From NCBI RefSeq assembly GCF_009689005.1, contig NZ_AP021879.1, forward strand, positions 7,193,501-7,257,500: a DNA stretch of 64,000 bases, in the 5' to 3' direction. The translations under genes and the position numbers were made by a program. Below are positions 1 through 10,436 of the stretch, one piece after another (the first letter of the stretch is position 1; each line of letters begins with the position of its first letter). The stretch comes from Desulfosarcina ovata subsp. ovata. GTDB taxonomy: Bacteria; Desulfobacterota; Desulfobacteria; Desulfobacterales; Desulfosarcinaceae. Under the pieces are notes generated by a model. It saw only the letters and a program-made list of their open reading frames with translations, made no database searches and was not told the origin of the DNA.

Positions 1-561
1 CTTCACCAGCGGCGGGGTGGCCGCAATGGGCCTGCCGTAGCAACATCCATAGCTGATGCAGGCCAGGCGGCCGATGCCTTCGCCCAGGGCGTAGCCCACC
101 ATCAAGGCCGCGACCACGGCCATGCTTTCAAATCGGATCGCCATCCAGCGGCCGGCGATCGCTTCCATGAGCAACACCAGCCAGGGCGCGGCCACAATGC
201 CCACAAACGATGCGGCGCCCACGCTGAGGGTGTGGGGTTTTTTCTCAACCCAGCGGGCGATAATGCGCGATGCCGGCAGGCAGCATCCCAGCAGCGTTGC
301 CATCACGGCGGCAAAGACGCCCGGCGCGACACCCGATGCGCCGGTGAGCACCAGGACCAGGGCAACGGCAGCCCCGAGCGCCATGGCGTTGAACAGGCCG
401 TAGTAGGTCAGGTTGAGACCCTGCCACGATCCGTCGGCCCGTTTTTTCACGGGAATGGCGCAGATGATCTGCCAGCGTTCCCCGGGCAGTACTTTAAAGG
501 CCCAGCCGTAGACCATGGCCAGGATAATGGCCAGCGTACTCATGAAAAGCCAGTTTGTCAT
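1..561 (-). CDS. Lgt-like membrane protein (prolipoprotein diacylglyceryl transferase family), 3' end outside window
   Basis: The reading frame begins at the ATG at 561 and is still open at base 1, so about 187 residues are visible and the C-terminus is missing. It is strongly hydrophobic with several membrane segments. Near the visible end it has the cysteine-rich signature GRLACISYGCCYGRP, which is typical of Lgt-family relatives rather than of canonical Lgt. It starts 16 bases after the phosphatidylserine decarboxylase stop and is probably co-transcribed with it, which would fit a lipid or phosphoglycerol transfer role in the inner membrane. The exact substrate cannot be told from this fragment. 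Confidence 0.6.
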   Translation of the reverse strand, partial: MTNWLFMSTLAIILAMVYGWAFKVLPGERWQIICAIPVKKRADGSWQGLNLTYYGLFNAMALGAAVALVLVLTGASGVAPGVFAAVMATLLGCCLPASRIIARWVEKKPHTLSVGAASFVGIVAAPWLVLLMEAIAGRWMAIRFESMAVVAALMVGYALGEGIGRLACISYGCCYGRPIAATPPLVK

Positions 562-577
562 TGATTCGGTTCCTTTT

Positions 578-1603
578 TCAGGCCTTGCGTCCGATCTCCG
601 AGCGCACCCTGACGTCGGTCTCCACCAGGGGGGCCTGGAAGTTCAGCGTGTAGCGGCTGGTGACGTCACGGCGCCGCATGTTGGCCAGGATGTCTTTGGA
701 AAAGATCACGCGCTGCCGCTCGAAAATCAGGATGTCAACGCTGCTGCCCGGCCGGTAGAGACTCTTGGGGCAGCCGCGCTTGACGAACATGCCGGCTGCC
801 AGATCCAGCGGATCATCGTAGCGGATCGTGCTGTAGCACTGGACGATATCGCCGATCATCATGGCCACCACCTCGATCATGGCCACCTGTCCGATGCCGG
901 TTCCGCCGGGAACGTCCGTATCGATAATGGTGACCACGCGCCGGTTTTTCGAAAAAGGCGTTACCATGGAGACCACCGCGCCGGGGTTGCACGAATGGCA
1001 ACGGCCGTCAATGGTGTAAATGTCGCGGATGATTCCGGCCACGGGCGTGTGGTTGTAGTGGTATTTGTCCGGGGTCAGCCGGAAAAGGGCAAAATCGCCA
1101 CCGTCAAAGGCATCGATCCATTGCGTTTTCTCCTCTCCCAGCAGCTCTGTGAAAGAGAAGAACTTCTCCTTTAGGAAAAGCGTATGCGGACGGTCGAAGG
1201 AGCCCACCAGTACGCGGGCATCGGCAGGGGAGACGATCCGTTCCGGCGCCTGGGGCATGGGACGGCAGGTCCAGTAACGGATCCGGCGTTCGAACAGTTT
1301 GCGCGGGGAATCCAGGCTGTCCGGAGCGTCCAGGCATTCGTCCAGGTCGATGCCCATCCGGCGGATACGTTGCAGCCGTCGGGAACCGTTGATGCCCAGG
1401 GAGAAGTCAAAATTGAGAAAACCGAGCAGGGCCGACATGCGCCGCGACGTGGCGGCCCGGAACAAAAGGGAGGGGTTTTCGCGTGCCCCGGCGTACAGGC
1501 GATGGATCAGGGGATCGGCGATCAATCGCTCGGTGGTCACGCCGGCCGTTTGGCGGTCAATGTACTGGTGGGGTGTCGGTTGCATGGTCAGGCAAAACTC
1601 CAT
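578..1603 (-). CDS. psd: Phosphatidylserine decarboxylase proenzyme
   Basis: This 341-residue protein matches the phosphatidylserine decarboxylase family, which converts phosphatidylserine to phosphatidylethanolamine at the inner membrane. Visible signatures are SPADARV near residue 120, the HYNHTPVAG histidine block in the middle, and the self-cleavage site PGSSVD, with G286 followed by S287. In the family, cleavage there gives a small alpha chain with an N-terminal pyruvoyl group. The start overlaps the end of the upstream 820-residue gene by 47 bases; a second ATG at 1585 is equally possible because neither has a strong ribosome binding site. It lies in a leftward operon between the 820-residue unknown protein and an Lgt-like protein. 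Confidence 0.88.
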   Translation of the reverse strand: MEFCLTMQPTPHQYIDRQTAGVTTERLIADPLIHRLYAGARENPSLLFRAATSRRMSALLGFLNFDFSLGINGSRRLQRIRRMGIDLDECLDAPDSLDSPRKLFERRIRYWTCRPMPQAPERIVSPADARVLVGSFDRPHTLFLKEKFFSFTELLGEEKTQWIDAFDGGDFALFRLTPDKYHYNHTPVAGIIRDIYTIDGRCHSCNPGAVVSMVTPFSKNRRVVTIIDTDVPGGTGIGQVAMIEVVAMMIGDIVQCYSTIRYDDPLDLAAGMFVKRGCPKSLYRPGSSVDILIFERQRVIFSKDILANMRRRDVTSRYTLNFQAPLVETDVRVRSEIGRKA

Positions 1604-4019
1604 CGTTGGGTGAACCGGACCGGGGGTTCCGTTTCATGTGGGTGAGGGTCAGCAGCATCAGGTGGATCAACCGGGCCAGGGCCGGCGTCGTAAGGGCCTC
1701 GTTCACCACGGCGGATCGACGGTTGCGGATCTCGGTGGCTGCATCTTTTCCCCCAAGGACCGAAAAAAGGGCCTGATTGTAAATCCCCCGGCGCCAGGTG
1801 GACATTCCGTCGAGGTGACGGACCTGCTCGGTCCACACGTCCAATGCCTGTTCGATCTGCTCTTTTTTCAGATCTTCGCGGTAGAACTTCTCTGCGGCGC
1901 TGTTGAATTCATCACTGGACAGGGCCATGGGGGCTGCGGCACCGGCATTGTCGCAGATCCGCCGCGTCAACCGGCCGGCTGCCGTATGGCAACCCTTTCC
2001 CGCCGTGCGACGGGCCAGGTCCGCAAGGGTGGGCCCCAGGCCGCCCGCTTCGATCAGTTCCGGGGCATCCTGGTGCAGCAATTTGACCAGCATCTGCCGG
2101 AAATCGACCATCCGTACCCGGGTATATCCGGCATAGCGACGGCTGTTGCGGATGTTGGCGGTTTTTCGTACCATGCGTGCCAGCAGGTGGTTGGGCGTAT
2201 CCGTGCGCACATAGAAAGTGGGAATCCCGGCCGCCGTACCGAAGAAGATCTGGCGCCGCTCGCTTTCAATGAACGGGTGGTCGGGAATGTCGGCGTGGGT
2301 GACGGCACCGGTGAAAATATACTTGTAGGCCAGGCTGGTGACCAGCATCTGCAGGTTTGCCGCCGGTGCCATGTCGCGCTGGAGGTTTTCGAAAAGACTG
2401 TAGTGGCGGCCTTCGAATCCGCTGAAGCCCATGGTCTGGAAGCAGCGTGCCCGGTAGAGCATGTACAGCGGCATGCACGGGTCGAACACGCCCATGTCGC
2501 CCAGGTCCTGTTTCAGGCGCGTTTCGTTTCCCAGGCAGCCGTCCAGGGCGGGGCTTTCGTCGGTGGCCATCAGGGCTACCAGATAGTCGATCAGCCGGAA
2601 ATCGGGAACGAAATCGCCCTTGAGACCAAACCCGCGCGCCAGGGTACGATCCAGCCATTCCGGGCCGAAGGGCGTGATGCAGCGGCCCAGGATTTTCATG
2701 TGGGCCTTTTTTTTCCAGCGCCGCCAGAGCATTCTCAGGTGGGTGAAGTCCAGTTCGTGGGGCAGGAATCCCAGAACCCGCTCGGGATGGAAATCCATGA
2801 AATCGATTCGGTAGGGCGCTGCCGAAAAGGTGCCCACGAACAGCGGCAGGAAATGCTCGATGATCTTGATGGCCAGGTCGCCGTAATGCTTCTCTTCCGC
2901 AGGACCGAAGCCGGAACCGGGATCCTGCATACAGCCCGTCAGCCGGCGGCTGCCCAGGCTGATGTGGGTGCCGTTGTTGGCCAGGCTGATGTTTGAGGTG
3001 CTGGGCAGGACCACCAGGTTGTTGGCGACGATGCCTGCCTCGCGCAGCTTGATCACCGCGTTGAGCTGGCTGCGTGAGAGCACTGTGTGGCACAGGTGCA
3101 TGTAGCGGTGCTTGGCCTCTCCGTCGTTCCAGCCGGACAGGCAGGGGCTCATGAAGAGTGATCGGTAGAAGCTGTCCGAGATGAGCGCGTTGAGGCGTTT
3201 CTGGCGTAGGGGCGGGTGGGGGGCGAAATAGAGGGTTGCCCGCTGGCCGCTGTCGATGAGGCCGAACTGCCGATTGGCATACTGGATCAAAAGCTGCGAG
3301 AACAAAAAGCGCAGGGAGGTTTCCCGGGCCAGGGCGTCACCCGGTCCGGCCTGCCCGTCGGCGCATACCGGATGGAAGGAGAAGGTTTCCGGCGACGTAT
3401 TGTCCGAGAGAAAATGGTTCATGGCCGCCTGGCCGGCGTCGCGGATGGTGGCGTGCACGGACGGGTGGCCCACGGCATCGGCCAGGGCCAGTTTCAGCAG
3501 GTAGCTGATGGGGATGCGCAGATATTCGCAGCCGGCCATGGTGATGGAAAACTGGCAGGCATCGCTGCGCTGGGGACTGTCTTTGCGGCGCTTGTCGGCC
3601 TGCAGGTCTTCCGCGAAGACCTGTCGGGCATAGGGGGTCAGTGCATCAACGGGCAGACGCACCCAACTGTTCTCCCAGACCCGGTCATGATTGCTTTCCA
3701 GAAAACGTTCCAGGGCGGTAATCCGAAACTGCGGGGTGTCTCCCCGCCGGGCTCGCTTTTTAAGGTTGCGGAAAAAGCCGGAGGCTTCGATCTCGCAGGC
3801 CAGATCCACCTGCTCGCGATCGCCCAGAACAGCGGTCTGGTATTCGTTTTCGGCACCGGCGGTGGTGTCGTACGGCGTGAAAGGAAGGCTCCGGGCCAGC
3901 CCGTCCGGGGTTGCCGTGTCGATTTCCAGCAGATGAATCAGTTTAAACCGGTTGGCCGCCGGATTGACGGGTGGTTGGGGCGCTTCCAACGGGAGGGGCT
4001 GGCCGGCCAGTGGGATCAT
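1557..4019 (-). CDS. Large protein of unknown function (820 aa) upstream of psd
   Basis: I do not recognise this family. The protein is 820 residues, apparently soluble, with no signal peptide or clear membrane segment and no obvious nucleotide-binding motif. It is rich in Arg, His and aromatic residues and has many scattered Cys. The ATG at 4019 has an AGAGAG element just upstream and lies 13 bases after the stop of a 28-codon gene. Its 3' end overlaps the start of psd by 47 bases, so translational coupling with phosphatidylserine decarboxylase is likely. Context suggests a role linked to phospholipid or envelope metabolism, but that is inference only. Codon use and GC content look native. 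Confidence 0.7.
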   Translation of the reverse strand: MIPLAGQPLPLEAPQPPVNPAANRFKLIHLLEIDTATPDGLARSLPFTPYDTTAGAENEYQTAVLGDREQVDLACEIEASGFFRNLKKRARRGDTPQFRITALERFLESNHDRVWENSWVRLPVDALTPYARQVFAEDLQADKRRKDSPQRSDACQFSITMAGCEYLRIPISYLLKLALADAVGHPSVHATIRDAGQAAMNHFLSDNTSPETFSFHPVCADGQAGPGDALARETSLRFLFSQLLIQYANRQFGLIDSGQRATLYFAPHPPLRQKRLNALISDSFYRSLFMSPCLSGWNDGEAKHRYMHLCHTVLSRSQLNAVIKLREAGIVANNLVVLPSTSNISLANNGTHISLGSRRLTGCMQDPGSGFGPAEEKHYGDLAIKIIEHFLPLFVGTFSAAPYRIDFMDFHPERVLGFLPHELDFTHLRMLWRRWKKKAHMKILGRCITPFGPEWLDRTLARGFGLKGDFVPDFRLIDYLVALMATDESPALDGCLGNETRLKQDLGDMGVFDPCMPLYMLYRARCFQTMGFSGFEGRHYSLFENLQRDMAPAANLQMLVTSLAYKYIFTGAVTHADIPDHPFIESERRQIFFGTAAGIPTFYVRTDTPNHLLARMVRKTANIRNSRRYAGYTRVRMVDFRQMLVKLLHQDAPELIEAGGLGPTLADLARRTAGKGCHTAAGRLTRRICDNAGAAAPMALSSDEFNSAAEKFYREDLKKEQIEQALDVWTEQVRHLDGMSTWRRGIYNQALFSVLGGKDAATEIRNRRSAVVNEALTTPALARLIHLMLLTLTHMKRNPRSGSPNDGVLPDHATDTPPVH

Positions 4020-4032
4020 TGTTCTCTCTTAT

Positions 4033-4119
4033 CTAAAAGAAGAAGGTCATCCATACACTGGCAGCAATGCACAGCAGGGAGGCTGACAACATGGCGATAT
4101 CCGTCGGGCAGTTGTTCAT
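4033..4119 (-). CDS. Small hydrophobic peptide (28 aa) leading the psd operon
   Basis: A 28-codon frame starts at the ATG at 4119 directly behind a near-perfect Shine-Dalgarno sequence (GGAGGAAATACC, then ATG) and stops at 4033, 13 bases before the 820-residue gene. The product has a short polar N-terminus (MNNCPTDIA) followed by one hydrophobic stretch ending in three Phe, the shape of a single-pass membrane micropeptide. The strong ribosome binding site is the main evidence that it is translated. It could be a real small membrane protein or a leader peptide coupling translation into the operon. Confidence 0.55.
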   Translation of the reverse strand: MNNCPTDIAMLSASLLCIAASVWMTFFF

Positions 4120-4256: not shown

Positions 4257-4949
4257 ATGTTCCCATCACCCAGAACCATGGCAAATATAGTCAACCGAAA
4301 CGGCTTTCGTTTGCGTCTGGTAGAGAAAGCCAAACCTTTAAAAAAACCGCAAACAGACGCTATTTTCAACAATATCAAAGAAAAGGACGGACAACAGTTT
4401 GACGAAGGAGAGAGCAAGCGAATAAGCATTGACTGCAAGGCCACCGTGAAAATCGGAGAATATAGCCGCGGAGGTAAAACACGTGGCGATAATCAGGCTG
4501 CCGACCACGACATGGGTTGTAAGGAAAAATATACGCCGTTTGGTGTATTGGATGAAGACAGCGGACAGTTGAACATCATCTTTGGAAGTTCCTTCAAGAC
4601 AAGCGATTTTATCTTAGACAGCCTATATGAATGGTGGAACCACATACCTGCCGAGGAACGCGATAGCATTTCCCTCCTTCAGATTAAGGCTGATAACGGC
4701 CCGGAGAGCAATGGGCAGCGAACTCAGTTTCTCAAACGAATGATGGATTTCACTGACTACATCGCAAAGCCCGTACAAATTCTTTATTACCCGCCATACC
4801 ACAGCAAATATAACCCTGTGGAGCGATGTTGGGGAATCTTGGAACAGCATTGGAACGGAAACAAGCTTGTGGATAGGGAAACTCCCGGTATGCAACCCTT
4901 GATGCGCCTTGAAGACGAACACAAGCCCGGCGCAATTACGTTCAATTAA
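4257..4949 (+). pseudogene. ISAzo13-type transposase remnant, truncated at both ends
   Basis: The frame carries the central DDE catalytic part of an ISAzo13-family transposase: IDCKATVKIG with the first Asp, KADNGPESNG with the second Asp, and NPVERCWGILEQHWNG with the Glu. Intact family members are around 400 residues; here the first 100 or more residues are missing. Real homology stops at about 4880, where the sequence passes into a palindromic repeat arm (4881-4967) and the last 23 codons are repeat-derived. No terminal inverted repeats are seen, so this is a dead fragment. Confidence 0.8.
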
Positions 4950-5143: not shown

Positions 5144-7261
5144 TTAAAAACCGAACTGCACGGCAGCAATGATATTGATGCCGGGTTCGGGGATAAAATC
5201 CATGTCGTCCTTGCGCAAATGGGACAGATAATATTTGTCCAGAATATTCTCGATATTGAGCGTGAGCTGCATGTCGTGTATCGCCGACCAGACGGTGGGA
5301 ATATCCAGGCCCGTCCGCAGATTGAATACGGCATAACCGGGAGTTTTGTCTTCGTCGGGGGCCGGATGATTCTGGCGTGCATAAAGGTCTCCGGAAAGCT
5401 CGATCCAATACCGCATGGTGTCGTACAGATGACTTTCCCATCGAACACCCAACGTGCCGTTCAAGGGTGGAATATTATTGAGACGGTCCCCGCTGTCGCG
5501 ATCTTTACCCACGACACTCGAGATGGTTCCAAAAACGCTGAAGCTGTCGGTAAAAGCGAACTGGGCCTCACCGTCAAAACCATAAAGTTCGGCATCCTGA
5601 ACATTGACATATTTATATGTGGGAATGTCGGAAATAAAGGAGGTGTCCTGTAAAACCGTATCGATGTAATCGTCGACCCGAGTGTAGAACAGGTTGAAAG
5701 ATCCCTGAAAACGGGAATAACGAACTTTCATCCCGACATCGTAATTGTAGGAATATTCCGGGTCCAGATCTGGATCACCGATTAAAATCTGGCTCCCGCC
5801 ACCGCGAGTCGAAAATCGTTCGAAGATGTCCGGCGCACGAAATCCGCTGCCGACATTGGCCGTCAGGTGGTAATGTTCCGTCAGCCTATAAAGCAGCCCG
5901 ATGTTAAAGGTGGCGGCACTGTCATCTGCGTCTGAAAAATCGTTGATCTCCGAACTTGACGAAGTCTGGGCCCCTGAAGCGTTGTAACGCGAATCGGTAA
6001 ACTCGATATCTTTGGCGCTTGCATCAAAATAGTCATACCGGCCGCCCGCGATCAGCGTCAGCTTTGGCATCAGGTGCATTTCGTCCTGAACAAAGGCACC
6101 ATAGTGGTATCGCTCGGCATCCGGTACCGGTTGAAACTTCAGGCGTCTGGCGAGGCTGTCATTGCTGTTTCGTTGAATGAGCTGGGTTTCCGTCGAATCC
6201 GTTCCTTCACGAACGGCCTCGAATCCGGCGGTGAGACCGTGCCGGTCGCCGAGTGGAATCAGCCCTTGAAAAGAGCCTCCGATTGCGCTCGTCTCAATAT
6301 CGTTGGATTTCAGATTATAAACCGGGCTGCTGGAACTGGGAAACCTGCCTTTAAACGAACGGTCCTGATCAACATAATAAATTCGGGCTTTGAGATTCTC
6401 GAAAAAACTCAGATCGGTGGCTTCATAACCGAGTTTGTAGCTATTCGTATCAAAACGATCAAAATGGGAATAGGGTGCGGAAGGATCCTTTTGCGGTACC
6501 CCCATGTCGTCGATCTGGTTGATTCGCAAGGACGCCGTCAGGCCTTGTTTGTCGCTCAGGGCATAGCGGGCTTTCAGATCGAGGTTGCGGTTTTCAAACT
6601 GCGAATTGTTGATTTCGTCACCGTTTCCATCCGTGTAATTTTCCACATCCCGGCCCGAGATGCCCAGCAGGAAACCCAGTCCCTTACCTCCCGCAGCCAG
6701 TTCGTAGCGCCCGAACCAACCATTGTCCGTACTGGAATAGCGGCCTTTGATGGTGTTTTCCATCTGCCACTGATCCCCTTCGGAAAATTCAACCTCACGG
6801 GTGATGATATTGATGACACCCCCCAGGGCATCGGTGCCGTAAAGTGCGGATGCCGGCCCCTTGACAACTTCGATCCGGGAAACCGAACCCATATCCATAA
6901 ATGGCGTAAACGGCATTCGACCTGCCCACAGGTTGGTTTCACGATCGCCGTCGTAAAGCACAAGCACCCTGTTTTGTCCAAGCCCACGAATGACCGGACT
7001 GGTTTCCCAGGAACCGGCACTTTCCATGGAAACACCGGGGATATCGGCAATGGCGTCGGCAATCGATGCCGGAGCGGTTTCCTGAAGACGTTGTTCATCG
7101 ATTGTCGAAATGGGCGTCGGTACATCAAAGGTATTGTCTTCCGAGCGGGTGGCGGTAACCACAATGGTATCCATCAGATACACGTTGTCTTCGGCAAGGC
7201 CATTGATGGCAAACGATAAAATGAAACAGAATGTGATGGTGAAACGGCAGAAAATGGACAT
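5144..7261 (-). CDS. btuB: TonB-dependent outer-membrane receptor, BtuB-like (cobalamin/corrinoid uptake)
   Basis: A 705-residue protein with an N-terminal signal peptide (cleavage probably after GLA, near residue 23), then a TonB box around DTIVVTA, a plug domain (GVSMESAG, then RIEVVKGPASALYGTDALGGVINI) and a beta-barrel ending in the C-terminal aromatic residue typical of outer-membrane proteins (VQFGF). Length fits BtuB and related receptors. A cobalamin riboswitch lies upstream on the same strand, so the ligand is very probably vitamin B12 or another corrinoid, and expression should fall when cobalamin is plentiful. No ABC importer partner is in the window. Confidence 0.88.
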   Translation of the reverse strand: MSIFCRFTITFCFILSFAINGLAEDNVYLMDTIVVTATRSEDNTFDVPTPISTIDEQRLQETAPASIADAIADIPGVSMESAGSWETSPVIRGLGQNRVLVLYDGDRETNLWAGRMPFTPFMDMGSVSRIEVVKGPASALYGTDALGGVINIITREVEFSEGDQWQMENTIKGRYSSTDNGWFGRYELAAGGKGLGFLLGISGRDVENYTDGNGDEINNSQFENRNLDLKARYALSDKQGLTASLRINQIDDMGVPQKDPSAPYSHFDRFDTNSYKLGYEATDLSFFENLKARIYYVDQDRSFKGRFPSSSSPVYNLKSNDIETSAIGGSFQGLIPLGDRHGLTAGFEAVREGTDSTETQLIQRNSNDSLARRLKFQPVPDAERYHYGAFVQDEMHLMPKLTLIAGGRYDYFDASAKDIEFTDSRYNASGAQTSSSSEINDFSDADDSAATFNIGLLYRLTEHYHLTANVGSGFRAPDIFERFSTRGGGSQILIGDPDLDPEYSYNYDVGMKVRYSRFQGSFNLFYTRVDDYIDTVLQDTSFISDIPTYKYVNVQDAELYGFDGEAQFAFTDSFSVFGTISSVVGKDRDSGDRLNNIPPLNGTLGVRWESHLYDTMRYWIELSGDLYARQNHPAPDEDKTPGYAVFNLRTGLDIPTVWSAIHDMQLTLNIENILDKYYLSHLRKDDMDFIPEPGINIIAAVQFGF

Positions 7262-7591: not shown

Positions 7592-8112
7592 ATAGCCGGA
7601 AAACAGTACAGTTAGTTACGATTCCAGCCTTTTTTGTGAGTATTCGTTTATTGTTTTTGAGGCATTTCGTCAACCCTATTTTCCCTGTATTGCGCTGTAC
7701 CGGAGCAAACGGTCAGCCAATGAGGCGACTTTGGAAGAATTGAAATCAGTTTTCTCTTAAACTATCTGGCAGATAACCGTCTCGTCCGATGGGCCACCGG
7801 GGTTCGTATCATTAATGCAGTTCATTCACTGTTTTGAAACCGGCGTCGGTAAGCGATAAGAACCCTTTTTCTGCCCTTGCACCAGAAGCAGCGAGGCAGT
7901 CCCCAGTTTACAATCCCCATATAAGATGGTAGTCATTTCAAAAATATGTTCTAAATTGCCTTCGTCCAACCCGTTTTATCCATCATCCCGCATCGTGCTA
8001 AAAGACCTTCGACATTGAATCAGCACCGTCGTCTGTTGGGAGTAACGTCGCTTCAATGGTTGGCGCGACGACGGATAACACGCTATCCATTGCAATATTA
8101 ACTTAATTAACA
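7592..8112 (+). other. Intergenic stretch without a recognisable gene
   Basis: About 520 bases between the riboswitch and the AT-rich island. I see no convincing coding frame, RNA gene or long repeat. The base composition falls towards AT at the right edge, marking the transition into the island. Confidence 0.5.
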
Positions 8113-8328
8113 ATGATAAAAATGGGATCTGAAAATCTGAAACGTTATATTAGTAAAAAAGTTGCTGAAGAATTATGGAATTTAAGCAGGGGCAGATGCT
8201 GTTTGTGCCGTATGACCATTCCAGCTGAAAAAAGCGGTTGGGCCGACATATCCGATTATCTAGAGAGACATCACTTGATGATAGTAACTATAATCCATTT
8301 ATGCAAATTCGTGCTGAAATACATTTAA
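8113..8328 (+). pseudogene. Possible HNH-type N-terminal fragment (71 aa), probably frameshifted
   Basis: The short protein contains a CCLC knuckle (GRCCLCR) and a downstream ERHHL, the spacing of a degraded HNH or zinc-binding nuclease N-terminus. It then runs out of frame and stops. The next open frame (from about 8238 or 8301) starts inside it in another phase, so the two may once have been one gene broken by a frameshift near 8270. It has poor ribosome-binding context and low GC. The assignment is tentative. Confidence 0.35.
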
Positions 8329-9074
8329 TCACGCTGAACTTGCATTATTTCATAGATATTAAGGCCGGCGATTTTGTTACGATTAAAGAACTAAGCGACT
8401 TTGTCCTTTCTAACATCATTACACCTATGGCAGAATATGATGATAATTATTTATGGAAAGACATAAATGATTTGGAATTGGCATATGAGTCTGATTTGAA
8501 AAAGAGAATTGATTCAAATAAGATAGTGAAAGCGTGCATAAAGAAAAATGACCCATTTATACCTATATTGACTATCACTCATCAATATGCAGCCATAGGG
8601 GCTGGACGTATAGCTGTTTTACGAGCGAATATCAAGGGTCCATTTAAAGATTTATTGAATCTAAGGCATACCACTAAAACACTGCTTCAAACTCATGGAT
8701 TCGCGGGTCCTTTGGAAGACCTTGATTTACTTGAAAGCTGGCTGCAAATGATAGATGATCAATACAGCCGCAGATGGTTGAAAAAAATCGTACTGCTTCT
8801 TGATAAGTCTCCTACATGGAAAGAAACACTTCATCATTGTCGGGATAAAATGCAGGATGAAGATAAACCAATTAGAAATGTTGATAGATTTTTCAATGAA
8901 ATGCAAATGATGTGTAAAAGAATATATGATACTGTGACGGATGATATGGATATTAAAGCCAGTGTTCAGCTTGATAATAGACGTATGGTGTTATGGAGTA
9001 TTATCCGTGGTCATATGATGGAATCTATTAAGGCTCTAATAGAACTGAAAAGATATAAAGAAACCTTAATCTGA
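8301..9074 (+). CDS. Protein of unknown function in AT-rich island
   Basis: An open frame of about 257 codons from the ATG at 8301; the same frame is open back to a TTG at 8238. I do not recognise the family. The product is mostly alpha-helical, rich in Lys, Asp, Ile and Met, without membrane segments or signal peptide. Its AT-rich codon use differs sharply from the neighbouring btuB and hydrolase genes, which points to horizontal acquisition. It may be the C-terminal part of a gene whose N-terminal HNH-like piece lies at 8113-8328. Confidence 0.5.
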   Translation: MQIRAEIHLITLNLHYFIDIKAGDFVTIKELSDFVLSNIITPMAEYDDNYLWKDINDLELAYESDLKKRIDSNKIVKACIKKNDPFIPILTITHQYAAIGAGRIAVLRANIKGPFKDLLNLRHTTKTLLQTHGFAGPLEDLDLLESWLQMIDDQYSRRWLKKIVLLLDKSPTWKETLHHCRDKMQDEDKPIRNVDRFFNEMQMMCKRIYDTVTDDMDIKASVQLDNRRMVLWSIIRGHMMESIKALIELKRYKETLI

Positions 9075-9241
9075 AAATTCATCAACGCTTGCGTCGGAGG
9101 TATTAATTTTTTAAAATTAGCTAACCCTATGCTGGTAAAGACGCGCAAAACGACCGGATGAGTGAGCAGGGCCGCATATTACATACCAAACAAGATGGGC
9201 GCCGGGAATTACCTTGATTATCAATCTATGAAAGGAAGCTT

Positions 9242-9841
9242 ATGGCATTGCCAGCAGAAGTAAAAAAAGGACTCTACATCAACAGGCTGTTATCATTATT
9301 ATCAACACCCGGAAGTAGGGCCCAACAGAGTTCACACAGTCAGTTTACAGGCAATAAAGTATATCGATATACAGCATGGTATAATTGTACTTATGTGGCC
9401 GCAGGAGGAGGGGCAAGAACCCCATGCTATCGATTGTCGAAAAACAATCCCCGTAACTTCCTGTATGTCGGAAATATTCAAGGCGGGGTAGCTGTCGGTA
9501 TTGTGCCTAAAAGGACAAGTCCATTTTATGTATACAGCGATAATTATGGTGGGTGTGAATGGCAAATCCTTGCCCGCAAAGATGGAACCGCGGCTGCATT
9601 TCTGCATGTATATAAAGGCGCCGAAGGCCTTGCAAATTATACATTAGGCGGCAATTGGGAGCTAAGAGGCAAGGTCGAATCTTCTCCGGTGGCAAAAATA
9701 GTCGGCCAAACAAAAAACATAATTTCGTTTGCATATGTGGCCTCTGGATGGACATTCGCAGAATGCTGTATGCTGGCGACGGATAAGCAAGATGGAACAG
9801 TTGATTCGATTTACGAATACAAGGCTATAAAGATTAGTTGA
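9242..9841 (+). CDS. Protein of unknown function (199 aa)
   Basis: Starts at the ATG at 9242 after GAAAGGAAGCTT, a good ribosome binding site. The product has no signal peptide. It is rich in Gly, Tyr and Trp with alternating hydrophobic strands (such as NFLYVGNIQGG and YVYSDNYGGCEWQI), suggesting a beta-rich fold. I do not recognise the family. It sits alone between the AT-rich orphan gene and a group II intron fragment, so it probably belongs to the same acquired island. Confidence 0.55.
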   Translation: MALPAEVKKGLYINRLLSLLSTPGSRAQQSSHSQFTGNKVYRYTAWYNCTYVAAGGGARTPCYRLSKNNPRNFLYVGNIQGGVAVGIVPKRTSPFYVYSDNYGGCEWQILARKDGTAAAFLHVYKGAEGLANYTLGGNWELRGKVESSPVAKIVGQTKNIISFAYVASGWTFAECCMLATDKQDGTVDSIYEYKAIKIS

Positions 9842-9893
9842 CAATCAAGACTGGAAGGCCTGAGCAGGGTAGCATCTTACTATTAACTGGTAA

Positions 9894-9914
9894 ACCCCCA
9901 GCTTTACCGGGGGA
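9894..9914 (+). terminator. GC-rich hairpin after the 199-aa gene
   Basis: CCCCCAGCTTTACCGGGGG forms a compact hairpin with no T run after it. It lies immediately 5' of the candidate group II intron end; some bacterial group II introns insert just after such hairpins. Confidence 0.35.
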
Positions 9915-9916
9915 CT

Positions 9917-10090
9917 GTGCGTCTGTGAAGAGGCCATAACAGCACGGTGAAAGTCCATGTCGGAGCAGGGCCAAGACCCCGTAACTGATGAAAACTGCGT
10001 CGCCGTGAGGCGGGTTGGAGAGCAACCGGAAGTGAACCAGCGGTCCGTGCCTAGCATGGGAGCGAAGGGGAACTCGCTGGCGCTTTATAG
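9917..10090 (+). mobile_element. Candidate 5' fragment of a group II intron
   Basis: The block begins with GTGCG, the group II intron 5' consensus. It continues with several short GC-rich hairpins and motifs that resemble domain I of bacterial introns, such as ACGGTGAAAGTCC and GGTTGGAGAGCAACCGG. No reverse transcriptase frame and no domain V or VI follow before ordinary sequence resumes at about 10090, so this would be a 5' relic. The call rests on motif resemblance only. Confidence 0.42.
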
Positions 10091-10149
10091 AAACCGCATA
10101 ACCGGATTCCAATTCAAATGCGGTCACCCTGCCAATTTTCTTGCATGTC

Positions 10150-10179
10150 TTGACAGTCGCCGAGAAAGCAGACTAAAAT
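10150..10179 (+). promoter_or_regulatory. Sigma-70-type promoter candidate
   Basis: TTGACA at 10150 and TAAAAT at 10174 are separated by 18 bases. The only rightward gene downstream is the small HEAT-type gene at 10437, which would leave a leader of about 250 bases. Confidence 0.4.
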
Positions 10180-10436
10180 AATGTTTCATTTCATTGTGCT
10201 TTTGTGCGGATTCGTAAAAGCCGTCTGTTTCCAAAGTGGTTTCACTGATTGCTCCTCTCTTACGCCTGCGGATTACTGAACGACAAACATCATTATTTCA
10301 GGATGGTTTGTCATGCAGAAACGAATCGTTATGAAACTGTGCCTACCCGGCTCCCGGCGGAGCAGGTCGCCCTCCGGGAGTATATCCAAAACTTGATTCA
10401 ACTGCGATGCAGACAGACGCCAAAAGGAGGTGGGTG

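Follow-up and report, generated by a model that had tools for sequence, protein, structure and literature searches.

The left end of a 64,000-nucleotide stretch of the Desulfosarcina ovata subsp. ovata genome (7.63 Mb, one contig), henceforth referred to as the window, raises the question of what an 820-residue protein of unfamiliar family does beside two proteins that resemble lipid enzymes. The operon lies on the minus strand and is read leftwards. It contains a hydrophobic leader peptide ORF (4033..4119; 28 codons, with a GGAGG ending eight bases before the ATG), the gene for the 820-residue protein U820 (1557..4019), a phosphatidylserine-decarboxylase-family paralogue referred to as Psd2 (578..1603; PF02666, E 9e-37) and an Lgt-fold membrane protein referred to as LgtL. 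The window holds the first 187 of the 350 LgtL residues (1..561), and the remainder lies beyond its left end; the full 350-residue protein is encoded at 8509-9561 of locus L003. A DUF2062 gene (L003 8035-8508; PF09835, 95.2 bits), outside the window, abuts LgtL with no gap, and the operon thus extends past the window. The start of Psd2 overlaps the end of U820 by at most 47 bases, or fewer if Psd2 starts at an inner ATG. The initial annotation had described the two as fused by this overlap; the overlap is present, and the genes occupy two different frames and are not fused.

Immediately upstream of the operon lies an ISAzo13-type DDE transposase ORF (4257-4949, plus strand; PF07592, profile positions 39-251 of 308), and the context on that side may therefore be rearranged. 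A TonB-dependent receptor gene (5144-7261, minus strand; PF00593, PF07715) is also located upstream. Left of the window, approximately 3 kb further downstream than the DUF2062 gene, the minus strand of L003 (2254-4899) encodes a protein of 881 residues whose C-terminal part is a CHAT protease domain (PF12770).

A scan of named genomes, one genome per species, identified 346 stretches encoding U820 relatives, of which the best 80 were examined. Psd was found downstream of U820 in 78 of these best 80 loci and LgtL in 70; when only the 73 loci with 2 kb or more of downstream sequence are counted, LgtL is found in 70. This recurrence exceeds chance, and it is the opposite of a U820 gene occurring mostly without psd or Lgt-like neighbours, the pattern named beforehand as evidence against a shared system. 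Among the loci without LgtL, L047 ends at the U820 gene, L105 encodes a full-length U820 (7935-10379) with neither a Psd nor an LgtL match in 8 kb downstream, L060 and L087 contain Psd and no LgtL in 8 kb of downstream sequence each, and the six others have just 259 to 1145 bases left downstream. Genes may intervene, and the distance from the U820 match reaches 5.5 kb for the start of Psd and 6.6 kb for that of LgtL (L059). By their titles, two of the recovered loci come from SAR324 (L054) and Candidatus Brocadia (L065), assignments in which misbinning is possible.

Similar patterns were observed in two further samples. U820 was present in 20 of 60 kin genomes, counting the window's own; of the other 19 kin loci, taken with 1.5-kb flanks, 16 have Psd and 14 have LgtL next to U820, and three of the misses (L022-L024) are partial U820 matches. 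Across 395 genomes of the phylum, U820 (E up to 0.001) was detected in 46, LgtL (E up to 1e-10) in 45 and both in 44. The exceptions are G061 and G426, which contain U820 fragments only and no LgtL, and G176, which contains LgtL and no U820. The G426 fragment is a 31-position piece (C1:3048054-3048146) in a one-contig genome with the same genus label as G351, which encodes full U820; it is perhaps a remnant left after loss of the unit. Pairwise distances of U820, Psd2 and LgtL correlate at 0.84 to 0.89 over 67 common sets, a value that indicates agreement only, as it includes no species-tree control. The plasmid collection yielded no match for U820 or for the LgtL of L030.

Other neighbours recur near the operon, and none is constant. 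DUF2062 proteins form clusters of 12 and 3 loci, with one member on the opposite strand, and a zinc phospholipase-C-like protein was found near U820 in 10 of the 80 loci. A PHP-glycosyltransferase (21 of 80 loci) and a radical SAM protein (9 of 80) were considered as core parts, rejected on these counts and retained as occasional partners. The PHP-glycosyltransferase occurs in 62 of the 395 phylum genomes, 17 of which are among the 46 with U820, and the radical SAM gene occurs in 12, of which 7 contain U820. In the window's genome the two genes are adjacent to each other at a site distant from the operon (G000:C1:2487333-2491473), and in some other species they sit in or beside it.

Psd2 was aligned across 74 sequences including the window (5 of the 78 loci were left out for short or wrong frames). 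Residues D128, H182, H185, S287 and S288 are present in 74 of 74 sequences and G286 in 73; these include the Asp, His and Ser positions that we take to be catalytic and what is presumably the GSx cleavage motif. Because the catalytic positions are kept throughout, Psd2 should be an active pyruvoyl decarboxylase. Six NCBIfam models matched Psd2, all under their cut-offs, the best being PRK00723-type at 118.9 bits versus an equivalog cut-off of 371. Psd copies were counted in 43 of the 46 U820 genomes (G061, G387 and G426 were left out), and all 43 hold at least one further, unlinked Psd in addition to the copy close to U820 on its contig (at a distance of 2.8 kb in G116). In the window's genome, the Psd outside the operon is a 222-residue protein. 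Since every U820 genome tested has this additional enzyme, the operon copy looks dedicated.

The same data bear on a simpler explanation, in which the operon merely tunes phosphatidylethanolamine supply, Psd2 acts as a second phosphatidylserine decarboxylase and U820 and LgtL serve an unrelated step. The fully kept catalytic residues of Psd2 agree with this explanation, which nevertheless has to accommodate a Psd elsewhere in 43 of 43 genomes and the co-occurrence of U820 and LgtL with only one or two exceptions each way, neither protein fitting that route. We consider it unlikely.

The initial annotation's description of U820 as a protein of unfamiliar family was borne out. No usable match emerged from searches of Pfam, NCBIfam, PADLOC and PDB sequences, and no Pfam family matched U820 at E up to 1. 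Eighteen Pfam families were listed among 50 U820 members, each matching one member (best E 0.004), and were taken as chance. Before any fold search, the stretches GxENE, DNTSPE and NNGTHxSLGS had been judged similar to the glutamine-synthetase/glutamate-cysteine-ligase superfamily. A structural model was then predicted from 50 sequences (pLDDT 84, pTM 0.90), and fold comparison by VIA placed 18 PDB entries of this superfamily at Z 9.4 to 18.5, with the next entry at 3.5. The matched entries comprise glutamate-cysteine ligase, YbdK, PafA and Dop (Dop at Z up to 14.6), and the nearest are gamma-glutamylcysteine synthetases. Foldseek gave its highest probabilities to GshAB, GshA, yeast GCL, PafA and Dop, with every E-value above 0.001. 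U820 thus belongs to a known fold superfamily, and the copies of Pfam and NCBIfam that were searched contain no named family for it.

Conserved positions were examined in an alignment of 80 rows, consisting of 79 loci and the window (L071 was left out for its short frame). The published strand motifs of the superfamily are ExE (or ExH) on strand 1, [HD]x[NH] on strand 4 and Ex[RK]x2D on strand 6 (Iyer and colleagues 2008, PMC2588565). In U820, E57 and E59 are kept in all 78 rows that have letters at these positions and lie on predicted strand 52-59, which places an ExE on the first core strand. E116 (79/79) and E211 (80/80) also lie on predicted strands, assigned as strands 2 and 3 by position and conservation only. 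H352, E536 and R538 are kept in 80 of 80 rows and form the motifs H352xS354 and E536xR538xxS541. Both serines, likewise invariant wherever the rows have letters, differ from the published motifs, S354 standing where N/H is expected and S541 where D is expected; PafA also varies at strands 4 and 6, with [HQ]x[NH] and [QH]x4D (Iyer and colleagues 2008, PMC2588565).

By sequence comparison alone, no relation of U820 to the superfamily appears significant. Alignment to GCS2 by hhalign gave E 0.35 with twelve sequences, of which at least two (L117, L118) were in wrong frames; restricted to sequences with a G-x-E-x-E-like motif, it gave E 0.15 over 39 columns (NNGTH to SAAPY). The GCS1, GCS2 and PafA family models did not match U820; PF04262 found nothing in 43 U820 genomes and PF04107 found nothing in the window's genome. 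GCS2 was detected in 12 of 118 phylum genomes, including G146, which also carries U820. A hydropathy window identified no transmembrane segment in U820, and a helix rich in Trp, Arg and Lys (425-438) may rest on a membrane. Because of its predicted fold and largely conserved superfamily motifs, U820 is very probably an ATP-dependent carboxylate-amine ligase of the glutamate-cysteine-ligase fold, a statement about class alone; structure prediction thereby supplied the enzyme class that the initial annotation had not given.

The fold also includes Dop, and U820 could therefore be an amide hydrolase or phosphatase-like enzyme that removes a group rather than attaching one. The Dop match and the two serines that depart from the published ligase motif agree with this assignment; the acidic, His and Glu-x-Arg positions kept throughout, and the ligases that make up the majority of the fold matches listed, make it improbable. 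Still less credible is a gamma-glutamylcysteine synthetase that serves a soluble thiol and has lipid neighbours only incidentally. Such an enzyme would explain the nearest folds and the absence of PF04262 from 43 of 43 U820 genomes, yet it would not need the near-constant Psd2 and LgtL neighbourhood, and G146 has a GCS2 match in addition to U820.

The leader peptide had been annotated as a 28-residue membrane peptide with a perfect ribosome binding site at the head of the operon. The ORF and its GGAGG are present, and a general role is not supported: when the ORFs were aligned and inspected by eye, a similar small ORF was clear at the same place in four of the 80 loci (L028-L031) and the window, all titled Desulfosarcina. 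The peptide has thus been seen clearly only in Desulfosarcina and is no general part of the system. This distribution makes it very improbable that the operon is a Pup-like system in which a small protein tag is ligated to a lipid or membrane protein, an idea that draws on the shared predicted fold of PafA and Dop and on the peptide ahead of U820 in the window.

LgtL was modelled from the L030 homologue and 38 sequences (pLDDT 92). The model matched E. coli Lgt (5azb) at Z 12.7, with the next entry at 4.9, and E. coli Lgt was also the sole Foldseek match with an E-value below 0.001 (9.7e-4). The LgtL of the window's genome matches the LGT Pfam model at 30.3 bits (cut-off 24.9), and the same genome encodes a canonical 287-residue Lgt at another site (236.7 bits); a third, weak match, to an ORF next to an ABC ATPase, was taken as chance. 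The LGT model matched 37 of 38 LgtL members at E up to 0.1. In a 59-genome sample, its matches consisted of a group at 112 bits or more and nine weaker ones, seven of which are operon LgtL.

The residues of LgtL were compared in 69 rows, representing 68 of 70 loci and the window (L038 and L039 were left out for odd frames). R165, R257, E261 and R264 are present in 69 of 69 rows and are equivalent to R143, R239, E243 and R246 of E. coli Lgt. The register was set by hhalign at E 0.013 and a probability of only 3.3%, with identical residue spacing; alignment to a single Lgt gave E 0.29. In E. coli Lgt, R143 and R239 are essential, R239, E243 and R246 form a network, E151 contacts the phosphatidylglycerol headgroup, and H103 is essential and probably located close to the peptide (Mao and colleagues 2016, PMC4728403). 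The H103-equivalent position in LgtL is V, L, I, A, T or C and is His in none of the 69 rows. C168 and C173 are present in 69 of 69 rows at the N146 and E151 equivalents, and a third invariant Cys lies beside the E151 equivalent. Since H103 (HGGL motif) and the N146/E151 signature are absent, LgtL was classed as an Lgt-fold protein and not as Lgt, in agreement with the earlier remark that its signature is unlike real Lgt. The fold and kept residues suggest a diacylglyceryl-handling enzyme, which would use another donor headgroup and another acceptor.

On balance we lean slightly towards U820, Psd2 and LgtL forming a conserved three-enzyme unit that makes an amide-containing, amine-bearing envelope lipid. 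In this proposal U820 would activate a carboxylate and join it to an amine. Psd2, distinct from the genome's other Psd, would decarboxylate an amino-acid-headed lipid to give an amine, and LgtL would act as a membrane transferase for a diacylglyceryl group with altered headgroup and acceptor sites. Pyruvoyl-enzyme Psd chemistry requires a free alpha-amino group, so Psd2 would act either ahead of any step that blocks this amine or on a gamma-glutamyl amide, at its glutamate end. It is the families of the two partners, Psd2 and LgtL, that point to a lipid product. An undescribed envelope-lipid system had been suggested from the window; the constant Psd and LgtL neighbours uphold part of that suggestion, and the lipid itself is less secure, as substrate and product cannot be read from sequence. 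Points against the proposed pathway are the lack of a U820 Foldseek match at E 0.001 or below, the two GCS2 profile values, S354 and S541, the missing LgtL histidine, the LgtL-less loci L060, L087 and L105, the last of which lacks Psd as well, and the genomes G061, G426 and G176, in which only one of U820 and LgtL was matched.

A more specific and speculative route, which we think has little chance of being correct, begins with a gamma-glutamylcysteine-like amide made by U820. LgtL would place a diacylglyceryl group on its thiol and Psd2 would decarboxylate the amino-acid head, giving a thioether-linked, possibly phosphorus-free envelope aminolipid. All three enzymes would in this case retain the chemistry of their ancestors and apply it to a small molecule. 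LgtL would then lipidate a small-molecule thiol as Lgt does a lipoprotein cysteine, producing in effect a lipoprotein anchor without the protein. Whatever the route, a widespread enzyme with two constant partners, encoded in 346 stretches at one genome per species, is still unnamed in the Pfam and NCBIfam copies searched. If the proposed pathway is correct, glutamate-cysteine-ligase-type chemistry has been recruited to membrane lipid synthesis, and these anaerobes bear a headgroup that could be revealed by lipidomic comparison of strains that have the operon with strains that lack it.

No description of the operon was found in the titles and abstract openings of open-licence papers, a scope that does not imply that it is unpublished. 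A review on bacterial aminolipids (PMC11631085) describes N-acyltransferases and related activation and does not contain the terms Lgt, phosphatidylserine decarboxylase or glutamine synthetase. OlsB-type N-acyltransferase aminolipid synthesis resembles the proposed pathway in yielding amide-containing membrane lipids, by analogy only. Psd2 shares PF02666 and the Asp, His, His and Ser positions with phosphatidylserine decarboxylase and differs in scoring below the equivalog cut-off and in never being the only copy in the 43 genomes tested. LgtL shares with Lgt the fold, the LGT Pfam match and the four R143/R239/E243/R246 equivalents, whereas it lacks the H103 histidine, has Cys at the N146 and E151 positions and occurs in a genome with a separate canonical Lgt. 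U820 resembles GshA, GshAB, YbdK/GCS2, PafA and Dop in its predicted fold and in the order of its ExE, HxS-type and ExR motifs. It differs from them in its 820 residues, compared to about 360 to 740 in the matched chains, in its lack of a Pfam or NCBIfam match, in its two Ser motif positions and in its gene partners, Psd and LgtL.
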